A stretch of 37,027 bases of DNA. Origin: a virus. Below, piece after piece: positions 4,760 through 14,286 of the stretch. Position 1 is the first letter of the stretch. Every line of letters starts with the position of its first letter. The stretch is taken from positions 1-37,027 of IMG/VR virus record IMGVR_UViG_3300048625_000202; one strand, given 5' to 3'. The position numbers and the translations under genes are program-made. The notes beneath the pieces were generated by a model. That model did no database searches. It saw nothing but the letters and a program-made list of their open reading frames with translations, and was not told where the DNA came from.

Positions 4760-5183
4760 TTTTGTAATGATTTAGAATTAAATTAAAATTAAATTCAAAG
4801 TTTTGTATAACGTGATCCATTTGCCACGTTTCAATAGATTCCTTTAAAACTTCTTCGCTTGGAATACCATCTTTATAAATTTGAGTTAATTCGTGCATAT
4901 CTAACATACTTTTTAACGCTTGTAAATGATATTCAATTGGTAAGGATAGAATATCAGCATTAATTTTTTTGGAGGCGAAATTTACATTTTTATAATGATT
5001 TAAAAACTCTTTTAACACAAAACAAAACATTTTAGCTAGCAATAGATTTTCTTTAATTACTTTTTTGTTTGATAAATTAACAAACTCGATTATTTCATTT
5101 AGTGCCTCAGCATCGTTTTTATTTGGCTTATTTTGTTTTGCTATTGTAAAACTCAAACGTTTAATTGATTCTGAAAGTATCAT
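4752..5183 (-). CDS. Helical hypothetical protein, possible helicase loader/accessory
   Basis: 143 aa, predicted mostly alpha-helical, with no recognised family. The hexapeptide NHYKNV occurs twice, once in the middle (LNHYKNVNF) and once as the exact C terminus. It is wedged between the DnaD-like initiator (ATGA overlap at 5180-5183) and the RepA-like ATPase (8-bp overlap), so translational coupling with both is likely. Position suggests a replication accessory protein such as a helicase loader, but there is no motif proof. Confidence 0.5.
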   Translation of the reverse strand: MILSESIKRLSFTIAKQNKPNKNDAEALNEIIEFVNLSNKKVIKENLLLAKMFCFVLKEFLNHYKNVNFASKKINADILSLPIEYHLQALKSMLDMHELTQIYKDGIPSEEVLKESIETWQMDHVIQNFEFNFNLILNHYKNV

Positions 5184-5962
5184 AATTTATCTTCTTTTTT
5201 AGGTTTAAATTCTGGTAACTTAGAACTCATTACTAATTTAGTTATTTGCTTTCTTAGTGTTTCAGTTGATAAAATGTTTGTTTTCCAAAACTCACCACGT
5301 GGTGAATTTAAATATGCATAAACCTCTCTTAAATTTTCAATAGTACATTCGTTGTTTTTTATCATTAACCTAATTGGATTTACGTACTTTTTAAAAGTTG
5401 CGTTATCCTGATCCTTTGTAGGTGCGTTTTTTTCTTTTAGGTTTTTAATAAATAGTTGTTGAAAATTATAAGCTATTTCATAAAATTGTTTAAAATCATC
5501 ATCAACGTCTGAAATTTTAATTTCTGACAAAAGAAAATCTTTCAAGTCTTTTTCTTCTTCTTCTTCTTCTTCTTCTTCTTCTTGCGATAGAGTATCTATA
5601 CTGTTTAGATACTCTATTAATATAGTATTTTTAACTTGCTTAAGTTCTGATTCTATGCACTTTAAAACTTTTGGAGAACTTGAATAGTTATATTTTACCC
5701 AATTTTTAATTGCTATTTCATTTGTTGTTTCAGAATATTGAATTTTACCAATTCTTATAAAGTATTCTAACTGTTTAGATACTGTATCTATATTGCATCC
5801 TAAATCAAATGAAATTTGTCTTTTAGATATTTCATAAATTCCGCACTGCTTTGTCCTTTCATTTGTTAATAGGTACAAATAAAATAGCTTTTTATCATTT
5901 GGTAGCTCACTTGTAAAAGAGTCACTCCAAAAAGTAACATGTATTTTTCTAAAAATAGCCAT
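5180..5962 (-). CDS. DnaD-like phage replication initiator (winged helix plus acidic linker)
   Basis: 260 aa. The N-terminal third (HVTFWSD, then LPNDKKLFYLYLLTNERTKQCGIYEIS) matches the winged-helix domain of phage replisome organisers/DnaD-like proteins. A run of ten Glu residues, all GAA codons at 5552-5581, forms a linker to a C-terminal helical domain that contains NLREVYAYLNSPRGEFWKTNILS, typical of primosome-type C-terminal domains. It would bind the origin and recruit the helicase encoded downstream. It lies 2 bp after the nuclease gene and overlaps the next gene by ATGA. Confidence 0.65.
   Translation of the reverse strand: MAIFRKIHVTFWSDSFTSELPNDKKLFYLYLLTNERTKQCGIYEISKRQISFDLGCNIDTVSKQLEYFIRIGKIQYSETTNEIAIKNWVKYNYSSSPKVLKCIESELKQVKNTILIEYLNSIDTLSQEEEEEEEEEEKDLKDFLLSEIKISDVDDDFKQFYEIAYNFQQLFIKNLKEKNAPTKDQDNATFKKYVNPIRLMIKNNECTIENLREVYAYLNSPRGEFWKTNILSTETLRKQITKLVMSSKLPEFKPKKEDKL
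5552..5581 (-). repeat. (GAA)10 trinucleotide repeat coding Glu10
   Basis: Ten perfect TTC units on the plus strand encode ten consecutive Glu residues, all GAA, in the linker of the DnaD-like protein. A pure triplet tract can change length by slippage without breaking the frame. Confidence 0.9.
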
Positions 5963-5964
5963 AA

Positions 5965-6453
5965 TTAAAAACCTTTATTAATTAAATCATAACCACTTTC
6001 TATTTTAAAATTTATTCCATCTATATTATAATTAAATGAAAAATTCATAACACTATTTAAAGTATTGTATGATTCATTTTCTAATAAATCAGTTAAAAAA
6101 ATATAATCGCTAATTATATCTATTTCTTTAGCACATAAAACAATATTTAATTTATAACTTATATTTGGTCGTTTTTCATCTAAATAACTTGATATTCCTT
6201 TACAATATCTTAATGCTTGTAAAAATGCTGATATTCCAGCTTTTTCTTTTTTAAGTTCATAAACAGTTATATCAAAATAACGACTATTATTTTCACCTAG
6301 CATTTTTTGATAAGTAACTAAGTCAGCAATTCCATAATTGCCAATTTTTAATTGTCTTAATTTTTTACCATAAATCCAAAGCCCTTTTTCTTGTAGTTTT
6401 TTATTATCTGATTCCCAAATAATGTTTTCTAAATCTTTTTCTAAAAATTTCAT
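5965..6453 (-). CDS. Putative PD-(D/E)XK nuclease
   Basis: 162 aa. Visible motif residues are an N-terminal LEKDLE helix, GIADL (Asp44), then VYELK (Glu66-Leu-Lys68) and QALRY (Gln79 to Tyr83). Together these give the D...ExK...QxxxY pattern of PD-(D/E)XK nucleases of the RecB/Cas4/NucS type. The order, spacing and predicted strands fit, though the protein is short. It sits between the HNH gene and the replication initiator and is preceded by a structured leader with its own TATATTTG box. Possible roles are recombination end-processing or host DNA attack; which one is not decided by sequence. Confidence 0.55.
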   Translation of the reverse strand: MKFLEKDLENIIWESDNKKLQEKGLWIYGKKLRQLKIGNYGIADLVTYQKMLGENNSRYFDITVYELKKEKAGISAFLQALRYCKGISSYLDEKRPNISYKLNIVLCAKEIDIISDYIFLTDLLENESYNTLNSVMNFSFNYNIDGINFKIESGYDLINKGF

Positions 6454-6475
6454 ACTTTCCGTATTTTAAATGATT

Positions 6476-6579
6476 AAACCCTATAAAGTCAGCTTAATGT
6501 GAGATTTAGCTTTCCTTATAGGGTTTATGTAATATTTTCGGTTTGCAATAAATCTCACTAAATTGCTTTTACAAATATA
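6476..6579 (-). ncRNA. Structured leader with kissing hairpins (L2) and promoter box
   Basis: On the minus strand TATATTTG (6579-6572) is followed by hairpin 1 (GCAAT/ATTGC, 6566-6562 with 6549-6545, 12-nt loop) and hairpin 2 (AAACCCTATAA/TTATAGGGTTT, 6526-6516 with 6486-6476, 11 bp). The loop of hairpin 1 carries GTGAGATTT (6558-6550) and the loop of hairpin 2 carries AAATCTCAC (6507-6499), a perfect 9-bp loop-loop match. The nuclease ATG follows 22 nt later. A-B-A'-B' order also allows an H-type pseudoknot. Confidence 0.55.
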
Positions 6580-6605: not shown

Positions 6606-7100
6606 TTATAAAAAATTATTTTTATTTAATTCTTTTTCATAAGCAAAACTTGCTTTTGTTTCACAAATAAAACTTCCTAAATATTTTAATTTTTTATTTA
6701 TAACTATCATAGATTGCCATTTTTTATCTTTTTTATGCCATGAAACACCTGTATATTTAGAAGAAGATTTTAAATGCTTTTTATTTGTGTTTTCTCTTTG
6801 TGTTATAACTTCTAAATTTTCAACTCTATTATCTAATCTATTAAAATTAATATGATTTACAACTAATTTATGCTTACAAGGAATATGATTTAAAAAAACA
6901 ATAGCTACCAATTGATGAACTAAAAATTTTTTACTTAAACCATTTTTATTTAAATCTATCATATAATAAGTTCCTGATAAATAGTTTTTTAATAACTTTT
7001 CTTTTTTTGACTTATTATTGCCTAAAGATTTAATATTTCCTAAATTACTTACTTGATATAATCCTTCATACCCAATAATGTCTTTCCAAATTTCTTTCAT
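6606..7100 (-). CDS. HNH homing endonuclease (NUMOD4 - HNH - AP2-like)
   Basis: 164 aa in the classic free-standing homing endonuclease layout. An N-terminal NUMOD4 motif (IWKDIIGYEGLYQVSN, 4-19) is followed by an HNH_3 core (His62, Asn82-His83, Asn91/Asn95, ending NLEVIT at 95-100) and a C-terminal AP2-like DNA-binding segment (KYTGVSWHKKDKKW, 115-128). It would nick or cut a specific DNA site and spread the gene between related phages. It lies between SSB and the PD-(D/E)XK nuclease without interrupting either, and it has its own promoter and structured leader, so it looks like an inserted element. Confidence 0.88.
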   Translation of the reverse strand: MKEIWKDIIGYEGLYQVSNLGNIKSLGNNKSKKEKLLKNYLSGTYYMIDLNKNGLSKKFLVHQLVAIVFLNHIPCKHKLVVNHINFNRLDNRVENLEVITQRENTNKKHLKSSSKYTGVSWHKKDKKWQSMIVINKKLKYLGSFICETKASFAYEKELNKNNFL

Positions 7101-7108
7101 GATATTTT

Positions 7109-7206
7109 GCGTTTAAATTATGCGTTTAAAAAAGTAATGCGGAAATCGTAAACGCTTTGACTTTCAAAAGGCTAATTACCTCCTTTCTATCCGCTTTACA
7201 AATATA
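7109..7206 (-). ncRNA. Structured leader with kissing hairpins (L1) and promoter
   Basis: Minus strand: a TTG 20 nt upstream plus TATATTTG (7206-7199) form a good Bacteroidota promoter. Hairpin 1 is AAAGG/CCTTT (7186-7182 with 7171-7167) and hairpin 2 is GCGTTTA/TAAACGC (7155-7149 with 7128-7122). Loop 1 AGGTAAT (7181-7175) can pair with loop 2 ATTACTT (7138-7132) over 7 bp including one G.U. A second TAAACGC copy (7115-7109) and a GCGGA/TCCGC pair (7194-7190 with 7143-7139) offer alternative folds. The HNH ATG follows at 7100. Confidence 0.5.
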
Positions 7207-13640: not shown

Positions 13641-13755
13641 TATATTTGAATATTATTATTCGTGCAGGTTTAATAATCATAAGAAAACATTATAAAACGC
13701 TCATAATTGACGGACTGCACTCCTGATATTATGGGCATTTTAATTTTAAATAATT
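13641..13755 (+). ncRNA. Structured leader with kissing hairpins (L3) and promoter box
   Basis: Plus strand TATATTTG (13641-13648) is followed by hairpin 1 (ATTATT/AATAAT, 13655-13660 with 13672-13677) and hairpin 2 (GCTCATAAT/ATTATGGGC, 13699-13707 with 13728-13736, one G.U). Loop 1 carries GTGCAG (13662-13667) and loop 2 carries CTGCAC (13715-13720), a 6-bp loop-loop match. The HNH ATG follows at 13756. Same layout as the leaders at 6476-6579 and 7109-7206. Confidence 0.5.
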
Positions 13756-14286
13756 ATGGAATGGAAGGCAGTATTTTACAACGGTTTAGAAACTAATATC
13801 GAAGTAACTCGATGTGCAAAGGTTAGAAAAGTTAAAAAGGATTGGTATGGATTTTCTAAAAGATGTACAAATTTATATTATGGAGAAGTTGATTTTTCTA
13901 AATTAAAACCACATCCTCAAGGATATAAAATAATTTCCATACAAGTTAAAACTTTACAAAAAAAGAAAACAACTTCAATACATCAATTAGTAGCTGCAGC
14001 ATTTTTAGGTTATAAATGGAATGGTCATAAATTAGTTGTAGATCACATTGATAGTAATAAATTAAATAATCATATTGATAATTTAAGAATTATTACATCA
14101 AGAGAAAACACTTCAAAAGAAAGATCATTGAAATCTGGTTTACCTACTGGAGTTTGTTTTTGTAAACAAACAAAAAAATATTCTTGCGAAATTCAAATTA
14201 ATGGTAAAAAAAATCATTTAGGGAGATTTAATACTCCTGAAGAAGCGTCTCAAGTTTATCAAGATAAATTAAAAAGCCTCAAATAA
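13756..14286 (+). CDS. HNH homing endonuclease (HNH_3 - AP2-like), opposite strand
   Basis: 176 aa. The HNH_3 core runs from His76 (IHQLVAAAF) through DHID (Asp96-His97) to NNHIDNLRIIT (about 104-114). A C-terminal AP2-like DNA-binding segment follows (GVCFCKQTKKYSCEIQINGKKNHLGRF, about 132-158). The N-terminal 60 residues are variable and lack a clear NUMOD4. It is the only convincing plus-strand gene, placed between the last fibre gene and the lysis genes, with its own promoter leader and terminator, which marks it as an insertion. It differs clearly from the HNH protein at 6606-7100. Confidence 0.88.
   Translation: MEWKAVFYNGLETNIEVTRCAKVRKVKKDWYGFSKRCTNLYYGEVDFSKLKPHPQGYKIISIQVKTLQKKKTTSIHQLVAAAFLGYKWNGHKLVVDHIDSNKLNNHIDNLRIITSRENTSKERSLKSGLPTGVCFCKQTKKYSCEIQINGKKNHLGRFNTPEEASQVYQDKLKSLK

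Follow-up and report, generated by a model that had tools for sequence, protein, structure and literature searches.

Kissing-loop leaders with a putative terminator hairpin precede replication operons and homing-endonuclease genes in phages

Three leaders and the genes behind them

The window analyzed here, a virus record of 37,027 bases, carries Bacteroidota-type promoter boxes. On its minus strand a leader (L1) with two hairpins precedes a 162-aa gene that opens a replication operon. Every element named in the initial annotation, the two hairpins and the perfect 9-bp match between their loops included, is present on that strand.

6579-6454, minus strand: leader L1, two hairpins whose loops match perfectly over 9 bp
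6572-6579, minus strand: -7 promoter box of L1, TATATTTG, Bacteroidota-type, assigned by sequence
6545-6566, minus strand: hairpin 1, GCAAT (6562-6566) with ATTGC (6545-6549), 12-nt loop
6550-6558, minus strand: kiss strand GTGAGATTT in the hairpin-1 loop
6527-6544, minus strand: A-rich linker CGAAAATATT with an AAARRTATT-like motif, seen again in relatives
6475-6527, minus strand: hairpin 2, terminator-like, 11-bp stem extendable to 14 bp, arms AAACCCTATAA (6516-6526) and TTATAGGGTTT (6476-6486)
6508-6511 and 6491-6494, minus strand: inner stem AGCT/AGCT, presenting the second kiss loop
6499-6507, minus strand: kiss strand AAATCTCAC in the hairpin-2 loop
6452-6464, minus strand: mini-hairpin 3, ATAC-GGAAA-GTAT, touching the start codon, assigned by sequence
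5965-6453, minus strand: gene for a predicted NucS/EndoMS-like PD-(D/E)XK nuclease domain, 162 aa, first gene of the replication operon
5180-5962, minus strand: next gene, DnaD-like helicase loader/replisome organizer (phrog_6251, E 9e-41)

The kiss between GTGAGATTT and AAATCTCAC comprises 9 bp, or 10 bp counting one stem base, and the window holds no further exact copy of the L1 kiss strand. Within hairpin 2, the two AGCT arms flank AAATCTCACATTA. The T-run is weak in L1 itself (TTTAATCATTT), and the T-rich tail is stronger in most relatives. An element similar to the start-codon mini-hairpin, ATAC-GGAA(A/C/T)-GTAT, occurs in 22 of 44 relatives, built on ATAC/GTAT or ATAAC/GTTAT.

The 162-aa protein belongs to no Pfam or PHROG family. 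Its AlphaFold model (pLDDT 91) found nothing in the PDB at E <= 0.001 with Foldseek. A second structure comparison gave EndoMS/NucS as the best matches (5gke, Z 11.5, rmsd 2.5 over 111 residues), and the D and ExK residues of the PD-(D/E)XK fold are conserved as D44, E66 and K68. Alignment to 5gke is confined to residues 128-240, the N-terminal DNA-binding domain of NucS/EndoMS being absent. Collectively, the model and motif predict a NucS/EndoMS-like PD-(D/E)XK nuclease domain. The gene is essentially phage-borne, since 395 sampled host-phylum genomes yielded one weak partial match.

Two further leaders in the window, L3 and L2, precede homing-endonuclease genes.

13641-13648, plus strand: promoter box of L3 (leader 13641-13755)
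13652-13658 and 13671-13677, plus strand: L3 hairpin 1, ATTATTA/TAATAAT
13662-13667 and 13715-13720, plus strand: L3 kiss, GTGCAG with CTGCAC
13699-13707 and 13728-13736, plus strand: L3 hairpin 2, GCTCATAAT with ATTATGGGC
13712-13714 and 13721-13723, plus strand: L3 inner stem, GGA/TCC
13756-14286, plus strand: HNH_3 homing-endonuclease gene behind L3 (PF13392, E 1.7e-12)
7199-7206, minus strand: box of L2 (leader 7206-7101)
7190-7194 and 7139-7143, minus strand: L2 P1 stem, GCGGA/TCCGC, enclosing two hairpins
7182-7186 and 7167-7171, minus strand: L2 hairpin a, AAAGG/CCTTT
7159-7163 and 7143-7147, minus strand: L2 hairpin b, AAGTC/GATTT, sharing the T at 7143 with P1
7149-7155, minus strand: L2 hairpin-b loop GCGTTTA, complementary to two TAAACGC copies
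7122-7128 and 7109-7115, minus strand: TAAACGC copies ahead of the start codon
7128-7133, minus strand: L2 T-run
6606-7100, minus strand: NUMOD4 + HNH_3 homing-endonuclease gene behind L2 (PF07463, E 1.1e-11; PF13392, E 3.4e-8)

We scored each leader by the summed stacking energies of hairpin 1, hairpin 2 and the helix joining their loops, and compared this joint score with 3000 dinucleotide shuffles per leader. The L1 score (-43.3, z -3.3) was reached by none of its shuffles and that of L3 by one, whereas that of L2, drawn in the two-hairpin kiss fold, was reached by 29. L1 and L3 are therefore each beyond chance alone, and L2 is marginal in that fold.

The three leaders had been proposed to share one architecture. 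L1 and L3 do fall in the same class, and the leader of a relative of the L3 HNH gene (L083) has the L3 architecture with another sequence; L2, by contrast, belongs to another class. Its order of box, hairpin, hairpin and gene stands, but another fold has better support. L2 appears to represent a second leader class, better drawn as a stem enclosing two hairpins with a downstream pseudoknot. Compensatory changes in its relatives were read by eye, outside the covariation test described below. L121 (P12002L) has a GAGGA/TCCTC stem with the loop pairing as in L2, and pairings of the same kind are GTGTTAA/TTAACAC in L287, CTATGTT/AACATAG in L122 and TCACGTT/AACGTGA in L284. As in L2, the loop has two downstream partners in L003 (GTGACTG with two copies of CAGTCAC) and L066 (GTTGGTA with two copies of TACCAAC).

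Recurrence, covariation and genomic setting of the leader

A single-sequence search of IMG/VR with the L1 gene returned no match. tblastn of phage records identified homologs in Cellulophaga phage Nekkels and Bacteroides phage BF1-TP2, and a three-row alignment built with these two genes recovered 77 IMG/VR loci. Upstream of these genes one leader architecture recurs with changed letters. We compared the 140-nt upstream regions of 59 non-redundant relatives with 113 control regions from the same contigs and with shuffles. The mean joint score was -38.0 in the relatives, -18.5 in the controls and -24.0 in the shuffles. A score of -40 or better was found in 49% of relatives, 2% of controls and 0.08% of shuffles, and with the limit relaxed to -30 the shares were 85%, 7% and 7%, respectively.

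Motifs could be drawn in 57 leaders, from which we picked 44 strong ones by score. These 44 contain 38 distinct kiss sequences, complementary every time, with a median length of 8 bp. A TAnnTTTG box was found in 31 of them, and in 28 of these 31 hairpin 1 starts 2-16 nt downstream. Where hairpin 2 ends, an 11-nt stretch is T-rich in 42 of the 44, against a baseline of 17%, and the AAARRTATT-like motif is present in 18 of 44 linkers, compared to a shuffle mean of 4.1 (maximum 10).

For covariation we used a MAFFT alignment of 11 relatives, made without fitting to structure, and followed 13 pairs from hairpin 1 and the kiss. Changes on both sides were seen at all 5 hairpin-1 pairs and at 6 of the 8 kiss pairs. 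Across these pairs 93% of cells are paired, compared to 67.8% in column shuffles, and 38 cells are changed on both sides, compared to 13.2 +- 2.7. The covariation score was 0.743 (0.287 +- 0.042 when shuffled and at most 0.21 when slid), and sliding the partner by one column reduced pairing to 51% or less. RNAalifold, run without structure input, returned the kiss helix alone, at exactly the 8 bp. In hairpin 2 of the aligned relatives, an inner stem of 3-5 bp presents the kiss in its loop, and 12 different inner stems occur among 13 relatives; that of L243, a relative of L1, is AGCA/TGCT with the kiss GTGAGAAG/CTTCTCAC. The kissing-loop or pseudoknot fold of the L1-class leaders is well supported by these data. 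Fold, covariation and the AlphaFold model thus agree with the initial proposal of such a leader in front of a PD-(D/E)XK-like gene, and the compensatory changes expected of homologous leaders are abundant.

Chance complementarity in AT-rich DNA had been a concern, as the hairpins were originally chosen by eye and L2 is marginal in the kiss fold. Shuffled AT-rich sequence did not give equal loop matches for L1, and the covariation arises in independent relatives. Chance is refuted for L1, and for L3 through the relatives of L3; we give it a negligible probability.

In the closest pairs of leaders, conservation of the kiss falls only slightly short of that of the rest (identity 0.79, compared to 0.87-0.90 elsewhere), and for this reason we do not claim diversifying selection on it. 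Two variants were noted among the relatives. In Nekkels (L119, 2850-3000) a second upstream stretch, AGTCTAAC, matches by eye a sub-hairpin, GTTAGAC, within hairpin 2, which suggests a double kiss in this leader. In the L094 family (L089, L091, L094, L097, L099, L100 and L101), loop 1 is CGCAGC, loop 2 is GCTGCG, and a third site, again CGCAGC, lies between the putative terminator and the start codon.

We scanned 1469 promoter boxes from 21 phage genomes, chosen for holding one of two gene families, which biases the proportions given below, and obtained 22 matches, compared to 1.5 expected from shuffles; 2 of the 22 look like chance. The downstream genes encode PD-(D/E)XK proteins in 10 cases, HNH proteins in 6 and an SNF2-type helicase in 1 (G017), and single matches precede phi19:1 gp030, a 194-aa gene in G016 and a 69-aa gene in FCV-1. 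The suggested tie to nuclease genes accordingly holds in part: nuclease genes are preceded by the leader, but so are gp030, the SNF2-type helicase gene and further early genes. One genome can have a kissing leader at several early genes. In phi19:1 it heads the operon gp030-gp031-HNH-primase/helicase, within which the HNH gene lies directly behind its neighbor without a leader of its own. In Nekkels it heads the PD-(D/E)XK gene, followed by a hypothetical gene and a primase/helicase gene. HNH genes without a replication operon are also preceded by it (L3, L083). Near-identical leaders (L004, L083 and L295) precede HNH genes of different subfamilies, which suggests modular exchange of the leader.

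Within genomes that hold two or three leaders the loops cross-pair poorly, at -6.3 kcal/mol for non-cognate and -14.3 kcal/mol for cognate loops. In the window, L1 and L3 pair with their own partners at -15.4 and -12.0, and with each other at -6.4 and -5.9.

HNH genes in other contigs (TATAAT-type, Firmicutes-like) have leaders of a further form. In L045, L072, L159, L162 and L186 a stem of 11-12 bp is crossed by a second long helix, with a T-run at the end; the L045 leader has no Rfam match. Strong crossing helices were found in 39 of 245 HNH leaders, a set that includes kissing-class ones, against 6.5 expected. A blastn search of phages with an HNH leader gave nothing useful.

A putative terminator and its proposed capture by the upstream loop

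A stable hairpin followed by a T-run, the signature of an intrinsic terminator, is present in 42 of the 44 strong relatives and weak in L1. Hairpin 2 is thus a putative intrinsic terminator, a feature missed in the initial annotation. We sought a classical competing antiterminator helix upstream in the leaders and did not find one: the 5' arm of hairpin 2 paired with upstream sequence (-6.9 kcal/mol) no better than in shuffles (-7.5 kcal/mol). As no competing helix exceeds chance, the kiss is the only conserved candidate switch partner that we found for the terminator-like hairpin. By crude geometry the linker is long enough for the kiss and the full terminator to coexist in 42 of 44 leaders; the kiss therefore need not block termination, and its effect may be kinetic. 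Linker length and helix length were uncorrelated (r 0.01), which gives no sign of geometric coupling.

On balance we consider it probable that these leaders are cis-acting attenuators of Bacteroidota phages in which the loop of the terminator would be captured by an upstream hairpin, with termination and read-through inferred from the sequences. The promoter would put hairpin 1 at the extreme 5' end of the transcript, the start site being itself a prediction. Some 15-20 nt further on, RNA polymerase would make the terminator-like hairpin 2, which would end in a U-run about 8-40 nt ahead of the start codon and whose apical loop is complementary to that of hairpin 1 over 6-10 bp. Synthesis would proceed from hairpin 1 to the hairpin-2 loop, the terminator 3' arm and the U-run. 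This order would allow kissing ahead of terminator closure. Hairpin 2 would halt a fraction of transcripts, and how large a share continues into the replication operon or the homing-endonuclease gene would be set by the loop-loop contact. We lean towards a contact that delays terminator closure and so favors read-through, the sign of this effect being presumptive. Control of expression, among the roles first suggested, appears likely.

Other readings have to be weighed against attenuation, as RNA protection or protein-binding antitermination would leave similar sequence traces. The terminated leader could accumulate as a trans-acting RNA of the P4 CI/C4 kind and, through its own loop, bind the hairpin-1 loops of other copies; the outcome would be immunity or control of copy number, with the loops setting specificity. 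Position at the head of a replication operon, as in P4 immunity by premature termination (PMC4825925), would fit this reading, as would kiss sequences that diversify with complementarity kept, the lack of cross-pairing within a genome, and the third loop-sequence copy after the terminator in the L094 family. However, both partners lie on the same terminated RNA, so that cis pairing should win, and the single weak match to the L1 gene among host-phylum genomes makes resident prophages with the gene look rare; we regard trans action as unlikely, if worth keeping in view. Much the same holds, with a shade less probability, for a protein-binding antitermination or put/nut-like site, in which the kissing hairpins and A-rich linker would form a scaffold where a phage or host factor helps polymerase through. 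The conserved unpaired linker motif, the fixed position at the transcript start and the occurrence before several early genes per genome are consistent with such a site, but no candidate factor was identified, and the helix bases vary freely, whereas in protein sites some are usually conserved.

A compact pseudoknot might also stabilize the mRNA or guide its cleavage as a 5'-end protection or processing element, a reading suggested by hairpin 1, which in almost every leader lies where the 5' end is expected. This would leave the T-run in 42 of 44 leaders unexplained, and we rate it somewhat lower again. The frequent position upstream of HNH genes might point to an RNA of guide or OMEGA/HEARO type that serves the nuclease encoded downstream. 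Yet the downstream genes are mutually unrelated (PD-(D/E)XK, HNH, helicase), their nuclease products are small NUMOD4/HNH_3 or NucS-like proteins rather than of IsrB/IscB type, and Rfam HEARO had no match in the window or leaders searched, all of which makes a guide RNA very improbable.

Beyond attenuation at single operons, we tentatively propose, at slightly under even confidence, that the leaders form a conditional "kissing terminator" class. Its loop pairs would diversify freely and give each operon a private switch, used for replication operons of Bacteroidota phages, with copies carried by homing-endonuclease genes. The covariation-supported element, which lacks an Rfam entry, comes from phages whose gene control is little studied, and it heads both replication operons and selfish homing-endonuclease genes. 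Should termination be under the control of the loop-loop contact, the element would act as a compact switch that gains a new specificity when one loop pair is changed, and would offer a testable account of phage replication timing and of the restraint of homing enzymes. The extreme loop diversity with perfect complementarity also provides a test set for kissing-loop prediction programs.

Relation to known RNA elements

In agreement with the first impression that no known RNA family was present, Rfam 15 has no match to the L1-class leader, and searches of the window at the gathering threshold and of L1 and L2 at E up to 1 gave chance matches only (SNORA69, mir-454). We found no description of the element in the open-access literature searched, and we are aware of no earlier case in which an upstream loop holds the loop of a terminator.

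In satellite phage P4, premature termination silences the replication genes, and the CI RNA pairs with seqA, upstream of it, and seqC, downstream (PMC4825925). This makes P4 the nearest studied case, the P4 CI/C4 RNA and L1 having in common a replication-operon leader, premature termination (putative in L1) and short complementary stretches, although architecture and the cis arrangement differ. CI is processed and acts in trans, whereas L1 and L3 hold both partners on one RNA, in two hairpin loops, one of them in the terminator-like hairpin, and have no Rfam match. As a control, the P4 immunity region matched Rfam C4 (RF01695, 74.9 bits) and isrK; RF01695 gave no covariance-model match in the window or leaders searched. 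IsrK of Gifsy-1 acts in trans on translation; owing to a terminator, its one promoter yields both a short RNA and an mRNA made by read-through (PMC4825925). IsrK (RF01394) resembles the L1 class, as read here, in being a phage leader with a terminator, and has no sequence or covariance-model match to L1-L3.

The layout of int-alpA (RF02996) is that of the L2 class: a stem enclosing two hairpins, then a U-run, with the second loop pairing past it. This is a likeness of layout, not membership; L2 precedes an HNH gene, L1 and L3 are laid out otherwise, and RF02996 has no match in the window, nor, with E relaxed to 1, in L1 or L2. A true RF02996 match (56 bits) was seen at L048:2411-2477, directly upstream of an HNH homing-endonuclease gene.

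In the kissing pairs of ColE1 RNA I and RNA II, loops of about 7 nt pair completely and their sequence sets specificity. Five relatives (L209, L211, L215, L220 and L257) similarly have 7-nt loops wholly in the kiss, but the ColE1 loops sit on two RNAs and those of the L1 class on one. The preQ1-I, purine and fluoride riboswitches include attenuators with pseudoknots or loop-loop contacts, and share with the L1 class a leader fold adjoining an intrinsic terminator, putative in our case. They differ in that L1-class leaders have no visible conserved ligand-pocket sequence and no antiterminator helix beyond chance, the competing helix typical of riboswitches being absent. Collectively, these comparisons place the L1 class as a new family of structured leaders within a known kind, the cis-acting phage leaders linked to termination.
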